This document shows, piece by piece, positions 147 through 17,854 of a stretch of 17,854 nucleotides of DNA. The stretch comes from an uncultured Ruminococcus sp. (GTDB lineage: Bacteria; Bacillota; Clostridia; Oscillospirales; Ruminococcaceae). The stretch lies in the NCBI GenBank assembly GCA_900540005.1, contig UQEM01000044.1, forward strand, positions 1-17,854, given 5' to 3'. The notes under the pieces are model-generated. The model was not told the origin of the DNA and searched no databases. It saw only the letters and a program-made list of their open reading frames with translations. A program made the translations under genes and the position numbers. Position 1 is the first letter of the stretch; the number at the start of each line of letters is the position of its first letter.

Positions 147-1004
147 TCACACCCCCAGATAAGCGTTCGTGTGAACGATGGTCACCCTCAGATTTTGCAA
201 CCCCGTGCCGCGCAGGTAAAAGCGGTTTCTGCCTTCACGCAGTGTCAGCCATGTTGAGCCGGAAACAAGTCGGTTGATGATATTGGTCTTGACACCGCCT
301 CTGTCCAGTGTTACCGTCTTATGGCCTGTTTTGGTTGTCACGGTAATGATGTCGCCTGCAAGAATCTCTCCGGTGATTTGCAGATATTCGTCCGTATCCG
401 CATTATACAGCGTGGGCGATCTTGCATCTTCGAGAGCTTCAATCACAAGCGTGAAGCCGATCTCGTCACCATCATTGATGATCTCCATGATGTTCTGCGT
501 ATTATATTTGCCCAGCACGAAAGGCTCCGGATTGGATTCTGTCGGGAACGGGAATGTGAATGCACCCGTGATCTGACTGTAATATGCCATGACGGATTCT
601 GTGGAATACCAGTAAATATCAGGACAGAGTATAGATATCTGTCCTGAAACAAGCTGCTCGAAGTTAGAAACTTCACAGATTTCGACATATCCCTCAGTGA
701 ACACATCAATGCCGGCGGTCTTGTAATACACTTTCACATATCTGCTCGGCTTCACCACCTTATATAGCTGATGACGGCGGCTTTCCACGCCCATTCCACG
801 CATCTCAAAATGGATCACAAGGTTTCGCTTTTCTATAAAAGCATTGTTCAGATAGCTTCCGTCCATGCCTGCATAAGACGATGCGCTGATTGTTCCGGGC
901 GGAGGATTTAGCCCTTCGATTTTTGAAGTCATAAAGTTGTTTGCAGTCGTGGATAGGTTTATTTTATCTCCGGCTGCGTTTTCGAGTATGAGGCTGAAAA
1001 ACAT
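147..1004 (-). CDS. Distal tail protein (Dit) / siphovirus tail component
   Basis: This 285-residue protein is a probable distal tail (Dit, siphovirus tail component) protein, the hub joining the tail tube to the adhesion device. The N-terminal half contains the motif IEGLNPPPGTISASS, then a strand-rich stretch (FIEKRNLVIHFEM), typical of the Dit N-terminal domain. The C-terminal half looks like a beta-sandwich ending in RNRFYLRGTGLQNLRVTI. I chose the ATG at 1004 over the GTG at 1013, because the Shine-Dalgarno AAAGGGG at 1014-1020 is one base from the GTG but a normal 9 bases from the ATG. In related phages this gene directly follows the tape measure gene; here a plus-strand dockerin gene separates them by about 2.2 kb. 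The next tail gene starts one base after its stop. Confidence 0.85.
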   Translation of the reverse strand: MFFSLILENAAGDKINLSTTANNFMTSKIEGLNPPPGTISASSYAGMDGSYLNNAFIEKRNLVIHFEMRGMGVESRRHQLYKVVKPSRYVKVYYKTAGIDVFTEGYVEICEVSNFEQLVSGQISILCPDIYWYSTESVMAYYSQITGAFTFPFPTESNPEPFVLGKYNTQNIMEIINDGDEIGFTLVIEALEDARSPTLYNADTDEYLQITGEILAGDIITVTTKTGHKTVTLDRGGVKTNIINRLVSGSTWLTLREGRNRFYLRGTGLQNLRVTIVHTNAYLGV

Positions 1005-1016
1005 AGGAATCACCCC

Positions 1017-1045
1017 TTTACATTTCGGCGGTTATCATGTATAAT
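1017..1045 (+). promoter_or_regulatory. SigmaA-type promoter of the dockerin gene
   Basis: The -35 box TTTACA (1017-1022) and -10 box TATAAT (1040-1045) are separated by exactly 17 bases, a near-consensus vegetative promoter. Transcription would start near 1052, leaving a 5' leader of about 95 bases before the ATG at 1148. The -35 box overlaps the minus-strand Shine-Dalgarno of the distal tail gene. The promoter gives the dockerin gene expression independent of the phage late operon. Confidence 0.75.
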
Positions 1046-1069
1046 AGATGTATGTAAGTTTAAGGACAA
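1041..1069 (-). promoter_or_regulatory. Candidate minus-strand promoter for the distal tail genes
   Basis: On the minus strand TTGTCC (complement of 1064-1069) and TATTAT (complement of 1041-1046) are separated by 17 bases. The -35 match is only moderate. Its -10 region overlaps the -10 of the opposing dockerin promoter. It could restore transcription of the tail genes cut off by the dockerin insertion, but AT-rich DNA yields such matches by chance. Confidence 0.3.
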
Positions 1070-1082
1070 ATTGGCAATTTGT
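1066..1082. promoter_or_regulatory. 17-bp palindrome in the dockerin gene leader
   Basis: ACAAATTGGCAATTTGT is a perfect inverted repeat with 7-base arms and a 3-base centre. It lies about 15-30 bases downstream of the predicted transcription start and well before the start codon. Position and symmetry fit an operator or a leader hairpin. No cognate regulator is identifiable here, since the XRE regulator in this window appears to use a different palindrome (GTGA-N8-TCAC). Confidence 0.4.
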
Positions 1083-1147
1083 GAGAAGCAATGAATAATA
1101 GCCTCTGCCAACACAAAGTTATCGAATAAAAAGGAGCGTGTATAACA

Positions 1148-3082
1148 ATGAAGAGGTTACTCGCATGTGTATCAGCTTTGGCTGTAATCTTGTCGTTCAA
1201 CAGTGTATCAGCGATTGCCGAGGATTCCCCGGCGAATATTGAAACTGCACTGTACGATCAATTAATGCAAAACGAAACTTATGACACCAACGGTGATGGT
1301 GTCATTTCGGAAGAGGAATTTTTGCAAATCAATTACCTAAATATTGACCTAACGGATATTACATCTTTGGATTTTTTAAATACTCTGCCAAACCTTCGCT
1401 TCCTATATATGCGCAATGGCAGTTTTGCTGATTTTTCATTTCTGAAAAATTTCACTTCGCTGTCAACGCTGCAACTTAGTAATATGCCACAGGTAACGGA
1501 TGTTTCTTTTATCAAAGAAATGAATCTTGACAAGTGCTATCTATCTCAAATGGATCAAATTACAGATGATATGCGAATCAATCTTCTCCGTTTTCAGGAT
1601 GTAGAAAATGGTGCTGTGGGATTTTCTAATCTGGTTGGTGCATTACCACAGGGGCTTTTCGTATATTCTGATATGTCACTTGCAATTGACGACACAGATA
1701 TTGCCTGCTTTGATCGAGATGTTGTACAACCTTTGCAGGCATCTGCTGCTGAGATTTATGGAAAAACTCCGGGAACTACTACGTACTCCTTTTCCTTCAA
1801 AAATGAAGTTATCCATACGGGAACAATAAAAATTGACGTGGTTCCGGAAACAACCACTCCAACAAAGGAAAACCAAGATTCACAGCAAATCTACACTTCA
1901 AAGTCTTTAAGACCGGGAAACACACTTGTTTTGCAAAATAATACATTATATGCATTAGAGAACAGAGCGTATTCCCCGTTAAAGAATGATGTGAAGGGCT
2001 TTTCGAACGGTTCATTTTATGACGATTCCGGCTCTGTTCTGTTTGTACAAGCTGATCTGGTTCTCTATCAAAATGGCACATTAGAGATTAACGGTAAGCA
2101 ACCGGTCGGTGGAGATGGCATCGTATTTTCACAGGTTGTCGGATCTTATGCAATATCTGAATCCGGCGATATATATTGCTTATACGGAGATAACGGAAAT
2201 ATTGTGCTTGATAAGGTGTATAGCGGTTTTGGCGGCGTTCCTGAAAGCGACCATATGTACATAATTTCGGATAAGGGCGAGATTGTTTTACTGGAACTAA
2301 AGTATCAGGATGGTAAAGCAATAAGCCGACAGGCGTTTGCTACTGGCATTATGAACGCGATCTGCTCTTATGGAAATTATTTCATTGATGAAAACCACAT
2401 TTTATGGGAAGTTGACCGAAATGTGGGGAACGAACCTACAATCAAACAGATTTCTGACGATGTAGTAGATGTTGGATTCAAGAGATATGGAAACGGCATG
2501 GTAGCTGGTGGGGTATATGTCAAGTCTGACGGTACTGCGTATACACTAAATACAAAGAAGAAAGTGGTTTTAGATGATGAATCAGAGGGCACAAAACCAT
2601 ATCTTGCATCCGGTTCGCTCATTTATAGCACGGGCGGCGGAGAGTACGCTGTGGCTGGAAACGGCTCAGGCAAATACCATATTGACTCTCAAAATGCTCT
2701 CTGTTTGGAATACAATGAAATTCGTAGAAAAACAAATGATGCAGCACAGTATTTAACCTATGACATAGACGAGGAAACTAATCTCCCCAATGTTTATTAT
2801 TTGAAATTAGACAACACAATCTGGTGCTATTCGTTTTCCAAGGATGCCTTTACCGAAGTTGTTGAACCGGAGAATCCGCAGTATCTTCGAAGCGATGTCA
2901 ACTCGGATGGCTATTTCAACGTAGCAGACATTGTAGTGCTGCAAAAATGGCTGCTTGCTGTTCCAGACACCACTCTGAACAATTGGAAAGCCGCTGATCT
3001 TTGCGAAGATAATAAGCTGGATGTTTTTGACTTATGTCTCATGAAAAGGGAACTGCTAGCGAATGTTTACCAATTGCATTGA
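1148..3082 (+). CDS. Secreted dockerin protein with EF-hand and LRRs (phage moron)
   Basis: This 644-residue exported protein has no recognisable catalytic domain. A signal peptide covers about residues 1-24 (basic MKR, hydrophobic core, cleavage near SVSA or AIA). A canonical EF-hand loop DTNGDGVISEEE is at 46-57. Leucine-rich repeat-like units span about 65-127 (LDFLNTLPNLRFLYM, FLKNFTSLSTLQL). A Thr/Pro-rich linker lies near 233-245. Residues 250-570 are repetitive beta-rich sequence (for example YVKSDGTAYTLNT) that may form an RCC1-like propeller. The C-terminus is a type I dockerin with two calcium loops: D583/N585/D587/N591/D594 and D617/D621/D625/D628. Dockerins bind cohesins, so the protein is probably docked on a cellulosome or cell-wall scaffoldin. 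AAGGAG at 1131-1136 supports the ATG at 1148. The gene opposes the phage operon and looks more AT-rich than its neighbours, with its own promoter and terminator, which points to acquired cargo. Confidence 0.85.
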   Translation: MKRLLACVSALAVILSFNSVSAIAEDSPANIETALYDQLMQNETYDTNGDGVISEEEFLQINYLNIDLTDITSLDFLNTLPNLRFLYMRNGSFADFSFLKNFTSLSTLQLSNMPQVTDVSFIKEMNLDKCYLSQMDQITDDMRINLLRFQDVENGAVGFSNLVGALPQGLFVYSDMSLAIDDTDIACFDRDVVQPLQASAAEIYGKTPGTTTYSFSFKNEVIHTGTIKIDVVPETTTPTKENQDSQQIYTSKSLRPGNTLVLQNNTLYALENRAYSPLKNDVKGFSNGSFYDDSGSVLFVQADLVLYQNGTLEINGKQPVGGDGIVFSQVVGSYAISESGDIYCLYGDNGNIVLDKVYSGFGGVPESDHMYIISDKGEIVLLELKYQDGKAISRQAFATGIMNAICSYGNYFIDENHILWEVDRNVGNEPTIKQISDDVVDVGFKRYGNGMVAGGVYVKSDGTAYTLNTKKKVVLDDESEGTKPYLASGSLIYSTGGGEYAVAGNGSGKYHIDSQNALCLEYNEIRRKTNDAAQYLTYDIDEETNLPNVYYLKLDNTIWCYSFSKDAFTEVVEPENPQYLRSDVNSDGYFNVADIVVLQKWLLAVPDTTLNNWKAADLCEDNKLDVFDLCLMKRELLANVYQLH

Positions 3083-3145
3083 TGCATAATAAAATACGCC
3101 CCATCACCGATCTTGAACTGCGTTATCCGTATGAAGTAATATGTG

Positions 3146-3179
3146 CAGGGGGCAGGAGCTTGATTCCTACCCCTGTTTT
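3146..3179 (+). terminator. Rho-independent terminator of the dockerin gene
   Basis: CAGGGG (3146-3151) pairs with CCCCTG (3170-3175). An inner AGGA/TCCT pairing (3154-3157 with 3165-3168) extends the stem, and TTTT follows at 3176-3179. It lies 64 bases after the dockerin stop and just before the 3' end of the opposing tape measure gene. The remaining bases of 3083-3198 hold no gene I can support. Confidence 0.75.
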
Positions 3180-3198
3180 ACTTGCACAGCGTAATAAA

Positions 3199-6100
3199 TC
3201 ACACATTCAGCGCATTCCGTGTCTGCCGATAAATTTCCAGTCGAGGCAGCGACTTCGGTGAATTATTCGTCTGGTTGACTGTCCGGCTGTTGTCATTGTT
3301 GTAGTAGTTGTTTACCACACCTGCGGAATTGCTTACTCCTGTCATACCGGACATATCCATGTTGAACCCGGACTGCATTGTCATGGTCATAGCATCGGCA
3401 ACACCGGATACCGCTTTTTCCACATATTTCTTGCTTTTGTTGATACCCTGTGCCAGTCCCTTCATAAAGTCCGGCATCCAGCTCTCAAATTCAGAAAGCG
3501 GTCCCTTGTCGGGAACGGAGAAGTGCAGATAATCGCTGATTGCCCGTGCCACATCCGCAACTGTATTGATGAGATTGCCAAGCATATAGGTGATGCCATT
3601 GATGAGGTTTTGCATGAGGTCACGCCCCCACGACCACGAGCTGTTGACTTTGTCCATGACTGCCTGATAAACGGAATTCATGGCATTGCTAACCGCATCC
3701 CGCACACCGCCGAGGCGGTCAGAAATTCCGCTTTTCACATTATCCCAGATAGACAGCACTGCCTCCTTGACCTGATTCATCGGATTTCGCACGATGTCAG
3801 GCATAGTGTTCCAGATGGAAGAAACTACGGACTTGATACCGCTCAGGGCTGTGTTTACCACATCCTTCGCAGCGTTCCATGTTGTAGAGATCACATTTTT
3901 GATGTCAAGCTGTCCGGTCTGGATCAGATTTTTCAGTGCCGCCCATACAGCAGTGATGATCTTTTTGATTCCGCTCAGAGCAGAATCAATCACAGAAAAT
4001 ACAGCCCTCCACGTTGTCGTCACCACGCTCTTGATGTTGTCAAGGGTGTTTTTAATTGTAGCCACAACCGCTTTCCAGCCGGACGATACATCGCTGCTGA
4101 TCTGCGATATCGTTGCATTAATTGCGGCATTGGCGTTTGCCCAGACCGTTTTCACGGTATCGAACACCTGCGTCATGAAGCCCTGCACCGAGGTTACCAC
4201 AGTGGACAGTGCATTCTGGATCACGCTGCTGATCTTGTCAGCCAGTCCGCCCGCAAAGTTATTGACAGCATCGTTGACAACACCTGCATTGGCGTTGATG
4301 CCGTCCGCAAGTCCTGTCATGAAGTCCGGCATCCAAGACTCAAAGTCTGCAAGAGGTCCCTCGTCAGGTACAGAGAAGTGAAGGAAAGACTTGATCTTGT
4401 CAGCCACACCCTTGACCGCATCGGATACCTTGTTGATACAGCTCTTGATACCGTTCACAATGCCGTTGATGATGTCAGCGCCCCAAGAGAAAGCCTCAGA
4501 TGCAAGGTTCTTGATGAAGCTGACCGCCGCATTAAAGCCATTGACAATCGTTGTTTTGATCGCAGTGATCTTCTGAGATACTGCGGATTTTACAGATTCC
4601 CAGATATTCGAGACTGTGGTCTTGATCGCATTCATCACAGTTGTGACTGTATTTTTGATGTTGTTCCAGATGTTTGAGACTGTGGAGGAAATGGTGTTCA
4701 GGATACTGCTGATAAATCCGCTGATAGCGTTCCATACGCTGCTTACCACAGCATGAATCGCATTCAGCACAGCCGAAATGTGTGCGCTGATGCTGTTCCA
4801 GATGGAAGATACCACAGACCAGATCGCGTTCAGAATCGTGCTGATAAAGCCGGAAATTGCATTCCACACAGTCTCTATCACGCTTTTGATCGTATCAAGC
4901 ACAGTACTGATCGTAGTGCAGATCGCATCCCAAATGGTCTGGAAGAAGTCGCGGATACTCTCCAAAATGGGAGTCAAGAAGGCTACAATGGCATTCCAGA
5001 TAGCAGTGATTTTCTCGTGAATCCAGTCCATTGCCATGCCGATGAGAATCTGAATTGCCTGAAAAATGGTCTCGAACAGATAACGGAATGCTTCGAGCAG
5101 CGGAGAGATAATGTCATAGATCGTCTGCCATACAGTCGTAATGACTGACCAGATGGCGTTCATGACTGTTGTGATTGCTGTATGGATGGCGTTCCACACA
5201 GTCTCAATGACGGTCTTGATGAGATTGATTTTTGTGGTTACATCGTTATAAATTGCCGTCCAGATGCCGACAAAAAAGTTCTTGATGCCTGTCCAGATGT
5301 TGGTGAAAAATGTTGCAATGCCATTTACGACACCTGTAAAGAAGTTTTTGATACCGTTCCAGATACCAACAAAAAAGTTCTTGATTGCATTCCAGACATT
5401 CACCCAGAACTCTTTCACTTCGTCAAGGCTTGTGCCGAAAATGTTACACAGCACATTCATATAGTTTTGGAGCGTGTCTTTCAGGAAGTTCCATACCGCT
5501 ACAAAAATACCCTTGATGCCGTTCAAGACTTTTTCCCAGTCACCCGTGAAGATACCGATAAAAATGTCCAACACATTCAGTAGGATATCCGTTACCGCCT
5601 TGAAGATGTTAGCAATCTGCTGAAATACGCCCTCAAAAATCGGCGCAAGAAAATTGCACAGTCCTTCCCATACAGCTTTAATGACCTCGCCGATGTTCTC
5701 AAAGTCGAAGCCTAAAGCGTTGAGACGGTCTACGATGCCCTGACAGAAGCCCTGAAAAATACCCTTGATCTGCTCCCAGATCGCCGTGATTTTCGCTCTG
5801 AATTCATCATTTGTTTTCCACAGGTGTACGAAAGCCGCTACCAAAGCAGCGATAACCGCAATGACAGCGACCACGGGCGCAGAGATACCGCCGATAGCAG
5901 CACCGAACGAACTGAATGCCGCCTTTGCGCCGGCAATGATAGTCGGGAGATTGGAAATGAACTGCATGAGCTTGCCGACTGTGACCATTGTTTTGCCGAC
6001 AACGACTAAAAGCGGACCCAGTGCAGCGGCTACCAGAGCGATTTTGACGATCGTTTCTTTGGTCGCCGGATCCATTTGATTCAGCTTATCTACCAGAGCT

Positions 6101-7749
6101 TGAATTTTGCTAACGATAGCACGGATCGCAGGCATAAGAATTTCACCGAAGGAAATGGCTAATTCTTCAAGCTGCGATTTCAGAATGGTGAGCTGACCGC
6201 CGAGGTTGTCCTGCATGACAGCGGCCATTTTTTCGGTAACGCCGTTGTAGCCGTCCACTTCATCGGAACAAGTGCTGATCGCACTGTTCAGCTTCTCAAT
6301 ATCTGAGGGTGCGGCGTTCATAACTGCAAGAAAACCGGACATTGCATTTTTGCCGACAAGTGCTTGTGCCGCAGATGCTTGTTCCGATTCCGACATCTGT
6401 GAGAATGCCACCCGGCAGTCTGCAAGGATATCATTCAGATCACGCATCGAGCCGTCTGCATTGGTAGTAGCGATCTCGATCTCTCCGAAGGAATCACCGC
6501 AGAATTTTACCTCTCCGGCAAGCGCATTCATCATAGAACGGAGCGCCGTACCTGCCTGTGAACCCTTGATACCGCTGTTCGCCATGAGACCGATCGCCTC
6601 GGCAGTGTCCTCACAGGAGAAACCCAGCGCACCTGCAACAGGCGCACAATACTTAAAGGTTTCACCCATCATGGACACATTGGTATTGGCGTTGGACGAT
6701 GCTGCTGCAAGTACGTCAGCAAAGTGTCCGGAATCAGCGGCTGTCAGTCCGAAAGCGGTCAGAGCGTCCGTGACGATATCCGATGTGGTTGCCAAATCCT
6801 CACCGCTCGCCGCCGCAAGGTTCATGATACCTTCGATACCGTCAAGCATATCTCCCGTTTTCCATCCTGCCATCGCCATGTAGTTCATGGCTTCCGCGGC
6901 TTCGGATGCGGAGAATTTTGTCTTTGCGCCCATTTCACGGGCTTTATCTCTCAGGTCTTGCAGCTCATCACCGGTCGCACCGGATACAGCGGCGACCTTG
7001 CTCATGGCAGTATCAAAATCCGATGCCGTTTTCACAGCGGCAGTACCGGCGGCGAGAACAGGTACAGTCACATGGGTAGTCAGTGTCTCGCCCACATCGG
7101 CGATTTTGCCGCCGACCTTTTCAAGGGTTTCACCCGCCTGACCGATTTTCACAAGAGCCTCTTGGGATTTGGTTGCCTCCGTTTGCAGATTCTGAAGCTC
7201 CTGCTCGGTTTCGATGATCTCACGCTGAAGGGCATCGTACTGCTCCGGGGAGATCGGATTTCCGAATTCATCGGATACATCCTTTGCCTGCTGTTTCAGA
7301 GATGTCAGTTCATCGGTCGTTTCCTTAATCTCACGCTGCAAAGCATCGTACTTCTCCTGAGAGATCTCACCTTTGGAAAGCTGCTCATCGGCGGTTTTCG
7401 CCTGTTCCTTCAGTTCTTTCAGCTTGTTTTCGGTCTCACCGATCTTCTGCTTGATCGGATCGTATTTTGCCTTCCAAACATCGTAGTTGTCTTTGGTTTT
7501 GGCGGCTTCCTCGCTGGCTTTTTTCAGGGTATCCAGCCGTTCTTTCGTGCTTTTGACGGCATCACCGAGGAACTTCTGCTTTTGAGCAAGCAGTTCCGTA
7601 TTGGTCGGATCGAGCTTCAGAAGCTTTTCGACATCCTTGAGCTGTGTCTGCGTGTTTTTGATGTTCTTATCTACGTTCTGTAAGGCTTTTTGCAGACCGG
7701 TTGTGTTACCATTGATTTCAACTGTGATCCCACGAATTCTCCCTGCCAT
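3199..7749 (-). CDS. Phage tail tape measure protein
   Basis: This 1516-residue protein sets tail length and is threaded through the tail tube. Residues 1-215 are charged coiled coil, with an internal duplication of YDALQREI near 134 and 171. Residues about 215-530 match the TP901-type tape measure core (ASDFDTAMSKVAAVSG, AMNYMAMAGWKTGDM, SGIKGSQAGTALRSMMNAL). Two hydrophobic segments follow at 566-586 and 623-641. From 653 to 1081 the sequence is a gapless series of 11-residue repeats with W or F at fixed positions (such as VWNAIKNFFVG). A cap at 1086-1162 follows, then a second hendecad array (1184-1370) and second cap (1371-1447). The Shine-Dalgarno GGGAGGTGA sits just upstream of the ATG at 7749. 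At the usual 0.15 nm per residue this predicts a tail of roughly 230 nm. No peptidase or lysozyme domain was seen. Cargo genes flank it on both sides. Confidence 0.95.
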   Translation of the reverse strand: MAGRIRGITVEINGNTTGLQKALQNVDKNIKNTQTQLKDVEKLLKLDPTNTELLAQKQKFLGDAVKSTKERLDTLKKASEEAAKTKDNYDVWKAKYDPIKQKIGETENKLKELKEQAKTADEQLSKGEISQEKYDALQREIKETTDELTSLKQQAKDVSDEFGNPISPEQYDALQREIIETEQELQNLQTEATKSQEALVKIGQAGETLEKVGGKIADVGETLTTHVTVPVLAAGTAAVKTASDFDTAMSKVAAVSGATGDELQDLRDKAREMGAKTKFSASEAAEAMNYMAMAGWKTGDMLDGIEGIMNLAAASGEDLATTSDIVTDALTAFGLTAADSGHFADVLAAASSNANTNVSMMGETFKYCAPVAGALGFSCEDTAEAIGLMANSGIKGSQAGTALRSMMNALAGEVKFCGDSFGEIEIATTNADGSMRDLNDILADCRVAFSQMSESEQASAAQALVGKNAMSGFLAVMNAAPSDIEKLNSAISTCSDEVDGYNGVTEKMAAVMQDNLGGQLTILKSQLEELAISFGEILMPAIRAIVSKIQALVDKLNQMDPATKETIVKIALVAAALGPLLVVVGKTMVTVGKLMQFISNLPTIIAGAKAAFSSFGAAIGGISAPVVAVIAVIAALVAAFVHLWKTNDEFRAKITAIWEQIKGIFQGFCQGIVDRLNALGFDFENIGEVIKAVWEGLCNFLAPIFEGVFQQIANIFKAVTDILLNVLDIFIGIFTGDWEKVLNGIKGIFVAVWNFLKDTLQNYMNVLCNIFGTSLDEVKEFWVNVWNAIKNFFVGIWNGIKNFFTGVVNGIATFFTNIWTGIKNFFVGIWTAIYNDVTTKINLIKTVIETVWNAIHTAITTVMNAIWSVITTVWQTIYDIISPLLEAFRYLFETIFQAIQILIGMAMDWIHEKITAIWNAIVAFLTPILESIRDFFQTIWDAICTTISTVLDTIKSVIETVWNAISGFISTILNAIWSVVSSIWNSISAHISAVLNAIHAVVSSVWNAISGFISSILNTISSTVSNIWNNIKNTVTTVMNAIKTTVSNIWESVKSAVSQKITAIKTTIVNGFNAAVSFIKNLASEAFSWGADIINGIVNGIKSCINKVSDAVKGVADKIKSFLHFSVPDEGPLADFESWMPDFMTGLADGINANAGVVNDAVNNFAGGLADKISSVIQNALSTVVTSVQGFMTQVFDTVKTVWANANAAINATISQISSDVSSGWKAVVATIKNTLDNIKSVVTTTWRAVFSVIDSALSGIKKIITAVWAALKNLIQTGQLDIKNVISTTWNAAKDVVNTALSGIKSVVSSIWNTMPDIVRNPMNQVKEAVLSIWDNVKSGISDRLGGVRDAVSNAMNSVYQAVMDKVNSSWSWGRDLMQNLINGITYMLGNLINTVADVARAISDYLHFSVPDKGPLSEFESWMPDFMKGLAQGINKSKKYVEKAVSGVADAMTMTMQSGFNMDMSGMTGVSNSAGVVNNYYNNDNSRTVNQTNNSPKSLPRLEIYRQTRNALNV
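3409..3639 (-). repeat. Tape measure cap module, copy 2
   Basis: This encodes tape measure residues 1371-1447. It aligns without gaps to residues 1086-1162 (copy 1), sharing SWG near the start and the conserved string LHFSVPD, GPL, FESWMPDFM, GLA, GIN. The copies are 285 residues (855 bp) apart, and each directly follows an 11-residue repeat array, so array plus cap was probably duplicated as a unit. Confidence 0.85.
3640..4200 (-). repeat. Tape measure 11-residue repeat array 2 (17 units)
   Basis: Residues 1184-1370 divide into 17 consecutive 11-residue units with no insertion, for example IKSVVTTTWRA, IKKIITAVWAA, IKSVVSSIWNT and VKEAVLSIWDN. Hydrophobic residues recur at units' positions 1, 4, 5 and 8, and tryptophan mostly at position 9. 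The phase is shifted relative to array 1, so they are separate arrays. In DNA this is a degenerate 33-bp periodicity. Confidence 0.8.
4264..4494 (-). repeat. Tape measure cap module, copy 1
   Basis: This encodes tape measure residues 1086-1162, the first copy of the 77-residue module that recurs at 1371-1447. It separates hendecad array 1 from array 2. The strongest conservation is around LHFSVPD, FESWMPDFM and the following GLA-x-GIN. Confidence 0.85.
4507..5793 (-). repeat. Tape measure 11-residue repeat array 1 (39 units)
   Basis: Residues 653-1081 fall into 39 gapless 11-residue units. Clear examples are VWNAIKNFFVG, IWNGIKNFFTG, IWTGIKNFFVG, VWNAISGFIST and VWNAISGFISS; the first dozen units (653-784) are more diverged but stay in phase. 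Tryptophan recurs at unit position 2. Tryptophan/phenylalanine hendecads are a known feature of siphophage tape measures. The nucleotide repeat is a 33-bp periodicity, not a CRISPR array. Confidence 0.85.
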
Positions 7750-7772
7750 GCGATATCACCTCCCGTTAGGGT

Positions 7773-7798
7773 ATAAAAAGCAGCCCCGAAGGACTGCT
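7773..7798 (-). terminator. Rho-independent terminator of the repressor/membrane cassette
   Basis: Read on the minus strand, AGCAGTCC, a TTCG tetraloop and GGGCTGCT form a stable hairpin (one G-T pair) followed by TTTTTAT. It lies 21 bases after the XRE regulator stop and about 25 bases before the tape measure start codon, so it would end transcription from the cassette. It would also block late-operon read-through into the tape measure gene unless antiterminated. Confidence 0.85.
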
Positions 7799-7819
7799 CT
7801 GTGTGTGGTAATTTACTTG

Positions 7820-8029
7820 TTATTCCGAATCGATGAATGAAAAGAGTTCCTCGACCGTTGTTCCAAAGATATGCGCAATATCCATAGCAAGTTTTAGCGA
7901 TGGATTGTACTGCCCTTTTTCAAGCCGAATAATCGTTTCACGCCGGACTCCTGTCAATTCGGCAAGCTCTAATTGACTCATTCCTGTTTTTGCACGGTAT
8001 TCACGAATTTTCGTCACAAGCTCAGACAT
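7820..8029 (-). CDS. XRE/Cro-family helix-turn-helix regulator
   Basis: This 69-residue single-domain DNA-binding protein covers a whole XRE helix-turn-helix domain: helix 2 MSQLELAELTGV, turn, then recognition helix RRETIIRLEKGQYNPSL, ending FGTTVEELFSF. Small stand-alone XRE proteins of this type are often encoded beside a small membrane protein, and here the upstream membrane gene overlaps by 8 bases. A strong Shine-Dalgarno (AAGGAGG, 6 bases before ATG) supports the start. It is the obvious candidate to bind the four GTGA-N8-TCAC sites in front of the operon and so autoregulate. It lies inside the tail gene cluster with its own promoter and terminator, so it is cargo rather than a morphogenesis gene. 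Whether it also controls host or phage genes elsewhere is unknown. Confidence 0.85.
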   Translation of the reverse strand: MSELVTKIREYRAKTGMSQLELAELTGVRRETIIRLEKGQYNPSLKLAMDIAHIFGTTVEELFSFIDSE

Positions 8030-8414
8030 CTGCGTCCTCCTTGCTGAACGTTGTGTCCATGATTAGAAAGAGGATGCTTCTGATTGCAAGCAAAGCACAG
8101 ATAATTCCAATAAAAACTGTGGCCGGAATAGCACTGTTCCTTGCGAACATACCGATAATTGCGAATGCCGCAAAAAGAATCCACATGATGAGCGTATTCG
8201 CTTTGGCAAGATTTTGTTTTGCGAGTTCATCGGCTTTTTCAAACTTACCATCAAAGAATACTGCAACTGCGATGGGCAACCACACGACCATTTCCGACCA
8301 ATCGTCAAGAAACAGAATGGCAATGATGCCAAAGGCAGATAGTGCTGCGATGGCCGCATGATAGGAGCGCAAGGACTTAATGGGTTCTTTCGTTTTCGGA
8401 GAGTTCTTTTTCAT
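8022..8414 (-). CDS. Small four-helix membrane protein paired with the XRE regulator
   Basis: This 130-residue protein is not assigned to a named family. After a basic N-terminus (MKKNSPKTKEPIKS) there are four hydrophobic segments: about 19-37 (AAIAALSAFGIIAILFL), 43-56, 75-93 (LIMWILFAAFAIIGMFA) and 98-119. A charged loop (DGKFEKADELAKQ) separates helices 2 and 3, so it should be an integral membrane protein. I preferred the ATG at 8414, because GAAGGCGG precedes it by 8 bases and it lies downstream of the promoter; the longer ORF to 8462 would start inside the -10 region. Its stop overlaps the regulator start, so the two are co-translated. It may sense or modulate the regulator, or act on the cell envelope in the lysogen. 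Neither role can be read from the sequence. Confidence 0.75.
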   Translation of the reverse strand: MKKNSPKTKEPIKSLRSYHAAIAALSAFGIIAILFLDDWSEMVVWLPIAVAVFFDGKFEKADELAKQNLAKANTLIMWILFAAFAIIGMFARNSAIPATVFIGIICALLAIRSILFLIMDTTFSKEDADV

Positions 8415-8434
8415 AAATATTACCGCCTTCCCAA

Positions 8435-8450
8435 GTGAGGTATTTCTCAC
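8435..8450. promoter_or_regulatory. Operator site 1 (GTGAG-N6-CTCAC)
   Basis: This 16-bp palindrome lies between the predicted transcription start (near 8455) and the start codon of the membrane protein gene. Symmetry extends one more AA/TT pair on each side. It is one of four sites with the pattern GTGA-N8-TCAC. A repressor bound here would block early elongation. Confidence 0.65.
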
Positions 8451-8455
8451 TTTCT

Positions 8456-8471
8456 GTGACAATCATATCAC
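8456..8471. promoter_or_regulatory. Operator site 2 (GTGAC-N6-ATCAC) on the -10 box
   Basis: This site shares GTGA-N8-TCAC with the other three and spans the -10 hexamer (8462-8467), exactly 21 bp (two helical turns) from site 1. Occupancy would directly exclude RNA polymerase. The inner arms are imperfect, which may indicate lower affinity. Confidence 0.6.
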
Positions 8472-8490
8472 ACATTTGCGATAATGTCAA
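8462..8490 (-). promoter_or_regulatory. Near-consensus promoter of the membrane protein/XRE operon
   Basis: On the minus strand TTGACA (complement of 8485-8490) and TATGAT (complement of 8462-8467) are 17 bases apart, and a TGA immediately before the -10 gives an extended -10 element. This is among the strongest promoter matches in the window and points at the membrane protein gene, about 40 bases downstream of the expected start. Confidence 0.85.
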
Positions 8491-14897: not shown

Positions 14898-17078
14898 TCA
14901 GATGACCACAAGATCGTGGTCGGGTTCATCATATACACTGCCTTGCATCTCGTGGCGAATACAGCGGTCAAGTGCCATGATCCATGCTACGATGCCGTCA
15001 ATTTTCTCTGTGGACTTTTTCTTGGACGGCTTGATATTTTCCGCCGCGTCAATTTCAGCGACCACATTTCCTGCCATCCATCGCAGGACAGGATTTCCGC
15101 TATGGATAAACTTGCCCTCAAGCAGCAGCTTGTAAAGCTCCTTCATCGGTGGCGACATATCCTTGAAGCCCATGCCGATTGGGACAACGGTAAAGCCGTC
15201 ACCCTCAAGATCGGTGATTAACTGCGTTGCATTCCAGCGGTCGGCGGCAATTTCCTTGATGTTATACATCGTGTGCAGCTCGTTGATCGTTTTCCGCACG
15301 AAACTGTAGTCCACAACATTGCCCTCGGTGATATGAAATAATCCCATGCGCTCCCATACATCGTAGGGAACATGGTCTCGCCGTACTCGCAAATCGAGCG
15401 TTTCTCTCGGCAGCCAGAAGTGCGGGACAACGATGTATTTCTCGCCGTCATGCAGCGGAGGGAACACCAGCACAAATGCCGTGATATCCGATGTGCTGGA
15501 CAGGTCAAGTCCCGCATAGCACTCCCGTCCTCGGAGCTTTTCAAGGTCGATTGGAAGATTACCCCTGTCGTAGATATGCTCCGGAATCCATGCCACCGCA
15601 CTGCCTACCCACTGATCCAGACGAAGCTGACGGAATACATTTTCTTCAGCGGGATTTGTAAGGGCTTCTCGGTGAGCATCGCGGACTCGGTCGATGGCGA
15701 TAGTGTATCCGAGCGAGGGGTTTGCCTTGTACCAAGATTCCTCCGCGTTCCAGTCATCGCCGTCATCCAGTCCGTAGATCACGGGATAAAAGGACGGATC
15801 AATACGCCTTCCTTCGAGGATGTCTTTGGCTTTCGTGTGATACTCGTAGCAGATGGAATTTCTGTCCGTTCCTGCCGTGGTGATAAGGAAGTACAGCGGT
15901 TGAGTACGGGCATCGCCGGAGCCCTTTGTGAGAACATCCACAAGGCTGCGGTTAGGCTGGGCATGAAGCTCATCCAGAACCAGACCGGATACATTCAGAC
16001 CGTGCTTGGTACCGACTTCTGCCGAAAGCACCTGATAGAATCCCACATTGGAATAATTGACCAGACGTTTTGTGGCCGCCATGATCTTGGAGCGTTTCAG
16101 GAGCGCCGGTGTCATTTCGACCATGCGCTTGGCGACATCGAATACAATGGATGCCTGCCCACGATCAGCAGCAGCGCCGTAGACCTCAGCAGACGGCTCG
16201 TTGTCGGCGTAGAGCAGATACAGTGCAATTGCCGCTGCAAGCTCACTGTTGTGCGTAGGCACAAATGACGGTCCTGCGAGATATTGGTGACTCGGACTGT
16301 CCACCTGAATGCACTGCATTTTTACAGGATGATTTACAGGTTGAATATCCAGCAGATAATGAAAACAGGAGCGAGTTTCCTTTAACCGCGCCTGTGTGCG
16401 TGTATTTTTGCGTTTAAGCCTTGATGTCGGTTGGTCATCAAAGGTTGTAAAACGGACGATATACAAAATCTCGCCGGTCGGCCACCCATGCCGTGTAGAA
16501 GGCTCACATTTCACTGCATTTTTGATGCCGAGTGACCACAGCAGTTCTCTGACGGAAAGCGCCAGCTCTCGCAGCGTTGTGACATACACGCTTTGTCCTT
16601 TGCGTTCACCGATACAGCCGTCCGAATCCATCAGCCCTTGCAGCAATGCCCACCGCTGCTCTGCGGATGCCCTCAGATATTCTGGTCGGATCTTCTTTTC
16701 ACGGAAGCTGTCAAGTAGTACTGCTTTCAGTTCATTGTACTTTATGATCTCACTGCCGCCGCATTTCTGCGGATAACGGTTGTGTACCTTATACGGAATA
16801 TTCGAGATGATATCCTCGACATCCTCCGTCCGAACAGTGATCTCCGGCTTGGTCACATTACCGTTTCCGAGCCAGTAGCCGTACAGATACGGATCAATCG
16901 GTAAAACTGCCGCTTCTGTCTGAAGGACACCGCACACCGGAATTCGGATCAGAGAATCACGCTTTGACTGTGGTCTGTCGGAAAAACGCTGTCTGTATTC
17001 CGTTGTCCTGCGATAGATCTCGCCGGTCGTCCAGAGAACATCTGAAATTGTCAATAACGCTTGACACATTAACCGCAA
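14898..17078 (-). CDS. terL: Terminase large subunit with intein, 5' end lost to an IS
   Basis: The open frame is 726 codons; its first ten or so (from a TTG at 17078) lie in the IS end and are not terminase. Codons about 11-277 are intein and 278-726 the C-terminal extein of a Terminase_1-type packaging motor. The extein starts SELAAAIALYLLYAD, which in relatives directly follows the Walker A G-x-G-K, so the intein splits the P-loop at K/S. Walker B is LVLDE (D369, E370) and the coupling motif LITTAG is at 398-403. The RNase H-like nuclease residues are D525 (GLDLSS), D613 (ADRW) and D694 (KIDG). The N-terminal extein with Walker A and about 100 residues is absent, so this allele is probably non-functional as assembled. 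The stop is 15 bases before the portal start. Confidence 0.9.
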   Translation of the reverse strand: MRLMCQALLTISDVLWTTGEIYRRTTEYRQRFSDRPQSKRDSLIRIPVCGVLQTEAAVLPIDPYLYGYWLGNGNVTKPEITVRTEDVEDIISNIPYKVHNRYPQKCGGSEIIKYNELKAVLLDSFREKKIRPEYLRASAEQRWALLQGLMDSDGCIGERKGQSVYVTTLRELALSVRELLWSLGIKNAVKCEPSTRHGWPTGEILYIVRFTTFDDQPTSRLKRKNTRTQARLKETRSCFHYLLDIQPVNHPVKMQCIQVDSPSHQYLAGPSFVPTHNSELAAAIALYLLYADNEPSAEVYGAAADRGQASIVFDVAKRMVEMTPALLKRSKIMAATKRLVNYSNVGFYQVLSAEVGTKHGLNVSGLVLDELHAQPNRSLVDVLTKGSGDARTQPLYFLITTAGTDRNSICYEYHTKAKDILEGRRIDPSFYPVIYGLDDGDDWNAEESWYKANPSLGYTIAIDRVRDAHREALTNPAEENVFRQLRLDQWVGSAVAWIPEHIYDRGNLPIDLEKLRGRECYAGLDLSSTSDITAFVLVFPPLHDGEKYIVVPHFWLPRETLDLRVRRDHVPYDVWERMGLFHITEGNVVDYSFVRKTINELHTMYNIKEIAADRWNATQLITDLEGDGFTVVPIGMGFKDMSPPMKELYKLLLEGKFIHSGNPVLRWMAGNVVAEIDAAENIKPSKKKSTEKIDGIVAWIMALDRCIRHEMQGSVYDEPDHDLVVI
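16248..17048 (-). other. Intein with LAGLIDADG homing endonuclease (5' truncated)
   Basis: The protein-splicing element ends FVPTHN/S: penultimate H276, terminal N277, then S278 as the +1 nucleophile. An upstream block F resembles MQCIQVDSPSHQYLAG. Two endonuclease motifs are visible: LYGYWLGNG (65-73) and LQGLMDSDG (146-154). In the first, the metal-binding Asp normally at position 8 is Asn72; the second keeps D153. The N-terminal splicing block with its first cysteine or serine is missing because the IS interrupts the intein just before DVLWTTGEIYRR. The insertion site, the Walker A loop of a terminase, is a typical conserved target for phage inteins. Confidence 0.88.
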
Positions 17079-17812
17079 GGATTTTGAAGTTAAGCAGCGA
17101 TAGTCAAAGCAGAATAGAACCTGTGCCGTTTTACAGCTGGTGGGATGCCACCGATCGCCGAGCAGATTCTGCGGTTGCTCCAGTAGCTCATGAAATATCG
17201 CCAGACCATCGTTTTTAATGCTTCAATCGTATAATTTTCGGATCTTCTTCCTCTGTTATAAAACAATTCCTCCTTCATTCTTGCCCATATACTCTCGCAT
17301 CTTGCGTTATCATGGCATCTTCCTCCAGCACTGTTCATGCTCTGAACAATGCCGTATTTTTGAATAGCAGTTCTGTACGAAGAACTTGTATACTGGCTGC
17401 CCCGGTCGGAATGCACATTGGCTCCACGAATCTCCGGATACCTCAAGTTCGCATTTTTCAGTGTTTCACAGCATAGTTCAGCTCGCATATGGTCCGCCAT
17501 GGCAAGACCATTTGGCATCAGGTCATAGCAATCAAAAATCGCCGAAACATACAGCTTTCCGCCTTTTGCCTTGATTTCAGTAATGTCTGTAACGCATTTT
17601 TTCAAAGGTGCATCTGCTGTGAAATCACGTTTCAGAAGATCGTCTGATTTACGGGCTTCACGGTCTGCTTTTGTGATTCCGTTGGGCTTTCGTTTGGGTT
17701 TATGAATCAGGTTTATCTGCTCCATCACGCTGCGAACGGTTGCTTCGCACGGGATATTGATCCCATTAAGCTTGCCGACTTCTTTTCTGTACTTGAGTGC
17801 CTGATACATACG
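17049..17812 (-). mobile_element. IS3-family insertion sequence, partial
   Basis: The element holds the transposase gene and about 40 bases of its 3' flank. I place the inner end at 17049, where the plus strand begins TGTCAATAACGCTTGACA. The TG terminal dinucleotide fits IS3-family ends, and homology to intein resumes right after. The boundary could be off by a few bases. The other end, orfA and any target duplication lie beyond the contig, which stops in adapter at 17813. Contigs commonly break in multicopy IS elements. Confidence 0.75.
17090..17812 (-). CDS. IS3-family transposase OrfB (N-terminally truncated)
   Basis: About 240 residues of a DDE transposase with an rve-type integrase core are present. 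The three acidic catalytic residues are visible: D in VTDITEIK, D in VHSDRGSQYTS and E in NARCESIWARMKEELFY. The N-terminal part (RMYQALKYRKEVGKLNGI, then ATVRSVMEQINLIHKPKRKP) is the end of the OrfB HTH_21-like region. The C-terminus (MSYWSNRRICSAIGGIPPAV) matches the usual Y-N-x-x-R-x-H-x-x-L-G-x-x-P pattern loosely. The apparent start at 17827 (GTG, giving MYKRQ) lies inside the Nextera adapter and is an artefact; the native sequence begins at the Arg codon at 17812. The true start, and orfA if present, are missing. Confidence 0.88.
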   Translation of the reverse strand, partial: RMYQALKYRKEVGKLNGINIPCEATVRSVMEQINLIHKPKRKPNGITKADREARKSDDLLKRDFTADAPLKKCVTDITEIKAKGGKLYVSAIFDCYDLMPNGLAMADHMRAELCCETLKNANLRYPEIRGANVHSDRGSQYTSSSYRTAIQKYGIVQSMNSAGGRCHDNARCESIWARMKEELFYNRGRRSENYTIEALKTMVWRYFMSYWSNRRICSAIGGIPPAVKRHRFYSALTIAA

Positions 17813-17854
17813 CTGTCTCTTATACACATCTCCGAGCCCACGAGACTCGACGTC
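17813..17854. other. Nextera adapter plus index, right contig end
   Basis: Bases 17813-17846 are the reverse complement of the full 34-base Nextera read-2 adapter, starting CTGTCTCTTATACACATCT. The last 8 bases, TCGACGTC, sit exactly where an i7 sample index would be read. This is untrimmed adapter read-through; none of it is genomic. Confidence 0.98.

Follow-up and report, generated by a model that had tools for sequence, protein, structure and literature searches.

Morons of lambdoid-type phages are extra genes among the late genes that carry a promoter and a terminator and are dispensable in relatives, and they are usually met one at a time. The moron gp15 of HK97 is named in a title cited by PMC11318856. 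P2-like phages and P4-like satellites have, in the part of PMC9122126 consulted, a variable hotspot with a different genetic system in each element; the P4 locus adjoins cos, and its systems lie in either orientation. In bacteria, R. flavefaciens FD-1 encodes LRR-dockerin proteins with a signal peptide, and 28 LRR modules occur among its dockerin proteins (PMC2930009, in part). Some dockerin groups of this strain are thought to serve the cell surface (parts of PMC2930009 and PMC5301203), and the portion of PMC9377139 consulted mentions dockerins for bacterial genomes only. In the titles and abstract openings of the literature searched, no moron hotspot between the tape measure protein (TMP) and distal tail protein (Dit) genes, no dockerins in phages and no conserved-promoter cargo slots were described.

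The window, the whole stretch of DNA analysed here, is a metagenome-type contig of 17,854 nt from an uncultured Ruminococcus sp. (UQEM01000044.1, assembly GCA_900540005.1). Our analysis suggests that it carries a dockerin gene as bacterial cargo of a temperate-type siphovirus, placed in a conserved expression dock between TMP and Dit. We give this reading a probability of roughly 0.75. The features of the dock are as follows.

147..1013, minus strand: distal tail protein (Dit), flanking the dock on one side
1017..1045, plus strand: dock promoter TTTACA-N17-TATAAT, antisense to the phage operon, 11/12 to consensus
1046..1147, plus strand: leader with palindrome ACAAATTGGCAATTTGT (about 1067-1083) and, by eye, an RBS-like AAAGGAG upstream of the start codon
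1148..3082, plus strand: cargo gene between TMP and Dit, 644-aa protein (LRR, beta-rich, propeller-like, dockerin)
1217..1663, plus strand: internalin-like LRR domain, model residues 24-172
1868..2842, plus strand: probable beta-propeller, model residues 241-565
2891..3058, plus strand: dockerin domain, residues 582-637 (PF00404, E 3.4e-10)
3146..3179, plus strand: hairpin then TTTT, terminator-like by its fold, ending the cargo unit and adjoining the TMP stop
3199..7749, minus strand: tape measure protein (TMP), flanking the dock on the other side

The original prediction, of a 644-residue plus-strand gene between minus-strand TMP and Dit genes with TTTACA-N17-TATAAT ahead of it and a hairpin-TTTT behind, was borne out. 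The dockerin domain scored 40.4 bits against a curated PF00404 cut-off of 22.9. Both Ca-binding loops, DVNSDGYFNVAD and DLCEDNKLDVFD, are present; loop 1 is canonical, and position 3 of loop 2 is a Cys, a residue also present there in 11 of 14 relatives. A signal peptide was recognised by eye at the N-terminus. Structure modelling matched the LRR domain to the fold of internalins InlB and InlH and gave a probable beta-propeller for the middle part, which had been described as propeller-like and proposed for fold prediction over residues 250-570. Unlike internalins, the 644-aa sequence contains no LPXTG motif of an internalin-type wall anchor and has a dockerin at its C-terminus. It is similar to the LRR-dockerin proteins of FD-1 in its signal peptide, LRR and dockerin, but those described in the part of PMC2930009 consulted belong to a bacterial genome, whereas this one is phage-borne and its LRR and dockerin are separated by a propeller-like part. 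An NCBIfam search of 10 proteins gave no equivalog above cut-off for the dockerin protein. The GC content is 0.38-0.43 across the cargo gene versus mostly 0.43-0.58 in the rest of the window, where the lowest value (0.40) falls in a second dock described below. The leader is not more stably folded than its shuffles (z +1.58).

We compared the TMP-Dit junction among Dit-bearing viral contigs (35 loci and a second set of 50, of which 16 were new) and among 22 genome loci, which came from Dit matches in 19 of the 396 genomes of the family of G005. Of 74 loci entered, 10 were unmeasurable (L090, L102, L109, L112-L116, L118 and the window, where the TMP end reads PRLEIYR instead of the motif searched for) and 10 were duplicates, leaving 54 distinct junctions with the window excluded. 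The gap was longer than 150 bp (371-1600 bp) in 46 of them and 16 bp or less in the other 8, here called empty; that of the window is about 2.2 kb. By eye, the unmeasured L102 and L118 are filled, while TMP and Dit seem to adjoin each other in L109 and in the distant L113-L116 (Dit 30-33% identical). In 42 of the 46 filled docks, the longest ORF of the gap runs against the direction of the phage genes. Antisense cargo in L098 and L117 overlaps the TMP end and was clipped by the measure; counting these two, the strand shows backwards-facing cargo in 44 of the 46 docks. L005 and L111 differ in that their longest gap ORF does not run antisense. The nearest virus record, L001 (G001), was tried as a further witness of the junction. 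It matches the window strongly but ends within TMP, and is therefore uninformative at this point.

The window backbone loses its similarity to the compared loci somewhere within 917-1057 and regains it within 3197-3227, and no alignment to these loci (E <= 1e-10) crosses 1058-3196. G+C-rich hairpins were seen by eye downstream of the TMP stop in a number of relatives. Loci L079 and L100 are 95% identical over 84 bp on the Dit side and 95.6% over 45 bp on the TMP side, and L020 and L119 are 96% identical over 85 bp; no cargo similarity was found within either pair at E <= 1e-4. By sequence comparison, the TMP-Dit junction is a conserved cargo dock of this phage group, and the dockerin gene appears to be one load of it, not a lone moron.

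The promoter scan covered the 110 bp before the Dit start (taken as the ATG at codon 4 of the window's GTG-started ORF) and required a -35-like box 16-18 nt from the -10. An antisense TATAAT or TATACT with a spaced -35 was found in 45 of the 46 distinct filled docks and in none of the 8 empty ones. An earlier set of 52 loci including the window, 43 of them distinct, had given 38 of 39 filled docks and none of 4 empty ones. Measured to its near edge, the -10 stands 36-48 nt ahead of the Dit start in 42 of the 45, with outliers at 57 (L089), 68 (L111) and 84 nt (L026). At 36-41 nt, the -10 of the window is in the common register, and its -35 by eye adjoins or overlaps the Dit ribosome-binding site. 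L010 is the sole filled dock without a promoter at the usual place, and a promoter-like pair is visible further up. Many -35 boxes are weak (TTGCTT, TTGTTT), with a shuffle P of 0.1-0.3 for those single sites. As these are not significant singly, the evidence for a promoter is its fixed place. Mean pairwise identity was computed for 25 docks that were selected by a -10 at about 36-44 nt and aligned on that box. Between the -10 and Dit it was mostly 0.5-0.74 (one bin 0.31), to which the Dit ribosome-binding site contributes, while the cargo side was at background (about 0.25-0.33, and 0.36-0.41 in the last 10 nt). This indicates that unrelated cargo lies behind a related promoter.

In this light, the dock cargo is similar to lambdoid morons in being an extra gene amid late genes, with a promoter and a terminator, and dispensable in relatives. 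It differs in that the site and the promoter are a standing part of the phage, a related promoter being found before unrelated backwards-facing genes. The dock also resembles the P2/P4 hotspots, as one locus with different content in each related element; unlike the P4 locus, it lies inside the tail module, is antisense and has a conserved promoter, a common platform promoter not being described for P4 in the part of PMC9122126 consulted. Set against those hotspots, its cargo is only partly defence-like. The gene in the window had been predicted to be a self-contained moron. Cargo status is well supported by the conserved site, the other genes on TMP backbones 89-91% identical, the promoter and the hairpin, but self-containment is not, since the promoter belongs to the phage dock and is common to docks with unrelated genes. 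The cargo gene carries several features that define a moron: a putative promoter and terminator of its own, replacement or absence in phage relatives, and a deviating GC content.

When the main antisense ORF of the window was clustered with those of the 46 docks, 44 unrelated groups resulted (blastp E <= 1e-3), with L016/L098 (78%), L018/L094 (42%) and L021/L029 (identical) as the sole pairs. The TMPs closest to that of the window are those of L019, L022 and L026, and the cargo differs in each: Fic in L019, NUDIX and an unknown gene in L022, and in L026 a matrixin, with an apparent signal peptide by eye, and a second ORF. The profile search covered 40 cargo proteins, all from viral contigs; cargo of L005, L090 and the genome loci (L098-L119) stood outside it, the latter being read by eye. 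Pfam matches were found in 26 of the 40 (24 families, E <= 0.001); 4 of these stayed under the curated cut-off. The families were NMN transporter, NUDIX, GIY-YIG, VanZ, MTaX1/HNH, chromate transporter, Na/H exchanger, DnaJ, PDDEXK_4, Fic, DUF3644, matrixin, HXXEE, ADP-ribosyltransferase-like, EamA, HsdR-N, TraX, Shedu, RpiB-like, Imm33, SnoaL, HEAT, metallo-hydrolase and SUKH. Dockerins had also been proposed to be sought between TMP and Dit in related phages, and none was found among these 40 proteins from viral contigs. One NUDIX gene lies beside TMP in both L003 (8732-9196) and L022 (8854-9327), and the promoter-proximal gene differs between the two docks (GIY-YIG or unknown), which suggests gene-wise exchange inside a dock. 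The dock cargo of L107 (809-1433) resembles an MNT/HEPN toxin-antitoxin pair by eye.

Relatives of the dockerin protein were found at six loci of GTDB genomes, with 71-36% identity, in Ruminococcus sp., R. flavefaciens or Clostridia MAGs/genomes on contigs of 4.6 to 767 kb. By eye, the ORFs around them encode further secreted proteins or dockerin proteins or are of housekeeping type, none of them TMP or Dit, and the L037 relative has two integrase-like ORFs among its neighbours. Against the L037 copy dN was 0.21 and dS was saturated, so that dN/dS is unreadable. A protein search, in which the 7994 candidates sharing most words were scored, placed the protein in a 90% cluster of 65 member sequences. 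With the single protein and two alignments as queries, none of the viral contigs (IMG/VR) was found to encode it, in scans seeded by short peptide patterns that can miss distant relatives. The dockerin protein is, as far as its homologues tell, a member of a bacterial (Ruminococcus/Clostridia) family that the phage seems to carry as cargo. The original prediction had held that TMP and Dit adjacent in other copies, with the dockerin gene only at host loci, would speak against it. Both were encountered in part: 8 of the 54 distinct junctions are empty and 46 filled, and the six relatives with surroundings lie on bacterial contigs, none beside TMP or Dit. Because 46 docks are filled, this points to acquisition from hosts and not to an artefact.

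Sixteen genomes were chosen for a search of cohesins and dockerins; 6 of them contain a relative of the dockerin protein, and 10 were taken from the 19 that have a Dit relative. Cohesin matches were found in 15 (all but G003) and dockerin matches in 15 (all but G393), while among 14 named control genomes one had a cohesin match and none a dockerin match. As all chosen genomes hold a relative of the protein or of Dit, the cohesins indicate compatibility with docking, not enrichment. G311 and G343, which have the closest Dit (87-88%), hold at least 99 and at least 137 dockerins, lower bounds from 150 candidates scored in each, together with 12 and 16 cohesins. Docking to the scaffoldin or surface of a lysogen is plausible on this ground. 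G002 holds both a 70% relative of the dockerin protein and a related phage locus.

We propose that the dock supplies a backwards-facing promoter of sigma-A type beside the Dit ribosome-binding site and, in many cases, a G+C-rich hairpin at the TMP stop. With the late operon off in a lysogen, this housekeeping-type promoter could fire; as the cargo is read antisense to the late operon, it could be made while the late genes are silent. We consider such expression in lysogeny quite probable. The secreted protein would then be anchored through its dockerin to a cohesin of the host scaffoldin or cell surface, and would display the internalin-like LRR and the propeller as binding modules; we judge export and cohesin docking likely, with somewhat less assurance. 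A benefit to the host through adhesion, substrate binding or surface masking is a tentative suggestion. Once the late operon is on, transcription would cross the cargo from the opposite side. Related phages may exchange cargo, for which homologous recombination in the TMP and Dit flanks during co-infection would be the simplest route. Both the protein itself and the cohesins of the host genomes would be in keeping with a cellulosome or surface role. Should the dockerin prove functional, phages have a part in making up their hosts' cellulosome or surface coat, a contribution not named in the titles of the literature searched, which covered few subscription papers. This phage group keeps a standing, promoter-equipped backwards slot, with 44 content groups in 47 docks; as the slot is mostly full and its content differs nearly everywhere, every dock content is a candidate host-fitness or defence gene, and lysogenic conversion of fibre-degrading gut bacteria is opened to testing.

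The protein could alternatively cover a receptor or scaffoldin and block adsorption of other phages (superinfection exclusion). A surface location would fit this, and other docks hold likely defence genes: PADLOC matched 3 of 10 chosen cargo proteins (Shedu SduA, PDC-S26 and HNH nuclease) and 7 gave no match, and HsdR-N and the MNT/HEPN-like pair of L107 may be added. Relatives of the dockerin protein occur, however, in bacterial genomes outside phage tail loci, which makes a general surface role at least as likely, and we regard defence cargo as rather unlikely.

We infer that the window phage is a siphovirus of temperate type, since relatives of it sit in host genome contigs. No phage-type integrase was recognised among the window ORFs, part of which were profile-searched, and the tRNA search found no tRNA. 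The terminase region contains the following.

14898-17827, minus strand: TerL reading frame containing a LAGLIDADG domain
17090-17827, minus strand: IS3-family transposase ORF, coming after TerL similarity ends

The LAGLIDADG domain is likely an intein. Similarity to L001 stops at 17042 in the TerL frame, and L001 itself continues past there. TerL thus seems to be interrupted by an IS3-type element, and for this reason the phage copy may be packaging-defective. This would suit a functionless, decaying passenger in a defective prophage; yet the cargo ORF is full-length, its domains and Ca loops are as in relatives, the dock promoter is present, and the 90% cluster is well populated, so that we hold decay to be improbable.

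A second dock, which behaves similarly, lies on the other side of TMP.

about 7770-8489, minus strand: second dock, in sense orientation, between gpG/gpGT and TMP
7820-8029, minus strand: XRE regulator ORF
8022-8462, minus strand: membrane-protein ORF as listed, with an in-frame ATG near 8414
about 8488 to 8460, minus strand: promoter-like TTGACA-N17-TATGAT, by eye
within 7770-8489, minus strand: terminator-like CAGTCCTTCGGGGCTG-TTTTT at the end of the dock, after the XRE regulator

Equivalent slots hold other genes in relatives. In the sense docks of L018, L031 and the L126 contig, the promoter, the leader hairpin and GCTAAATCGGAATTTG are almost the same and the 3' ends are alike, and each dock encloses a different gene. 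The sense docks of L015 and L016 contain an EamA gene, to which one in the antisense dock of L031 is related (70-78% over 60-120 bp). A near-palindromic CAAATTCYGATTTG follows the promoter, the cargo stop or both in several docks: the antisense docks of L020, L027, L031, L032, L035, L079 and L082, and the sense docks of L015, L018, L020, L031 and L126, with copies on both sides of the cargo in L027, L031, L032 and L035. It may serve recombination or regulation. It was rejected as a feature common to docks in general: among 37 docks, 8 leaders and 3 trailers reached a shuffle P <= 0.01, and the window leader matches it at 10 of 14 positions (shuffle P 0.095). Its exact 16-mer was found in 13 stretches of viral contigs. 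Four are sense docks of this phage group (L121 and L123, which are contigs of L018 and L031, L126 and L127), and no dock-like context was seen at the other 9; 197 genomes gave 1 match. One could imagine integron-like platforms, with two docks around TMP, a fixed promoter and leader and cassettes bounded by CAAATTCYGATTTG inverted repeats, the phages serving as a circulating gene library for cellulosome-forming gut bacteria and the dockerin protein as one cassette tuning the host surface machinery. We rate this wider scheme as improbable too.

A virion structural or adsorption protein, decorating the tail and binding host cohesins through its dockerin, would explain the place between TMP and Dit, and dockerin and LRR could bind a cell surface. 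This is very improbable, as the gene is on the opposite strand with its own promoter and, by eye, a signal peptide, has no PHROG match at E <= 0.1 to suggest a phage structural protein, and has relatives on bacterial contigs, and as the site holds transporters, nucleases, Fic, NUDIX and others in relatives and is empty in 8 of 54.

Adapter-like or transposon sequence, presumably Nextera-like, remains untrimmed at both contig ends (1-32 and about 17810-17854). An assembly chimera, joining a host dockerin locus to a phage contig, might be suspected from these ends of a metagenome-type contig, from the six relatives with surroundings on bacterial contigs and from the absence of the protein in the viral contigs searched, but it is no less improbable than a virion protein, since both joins coincide with the start and end of the dock in relatives, the left one carries the dock promoter in the usual register, the right one has a hairpin like other docks, and nucleotide similarity of the slot (900-3300) to the bacterial relatives begins only inside the coding sequence.

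A separate observation concerns one bacterial locus, L041 (3456-8727), where the relative of the dockerin gene breaks off at about residue 290 and a 1457-aa ORF comes next.
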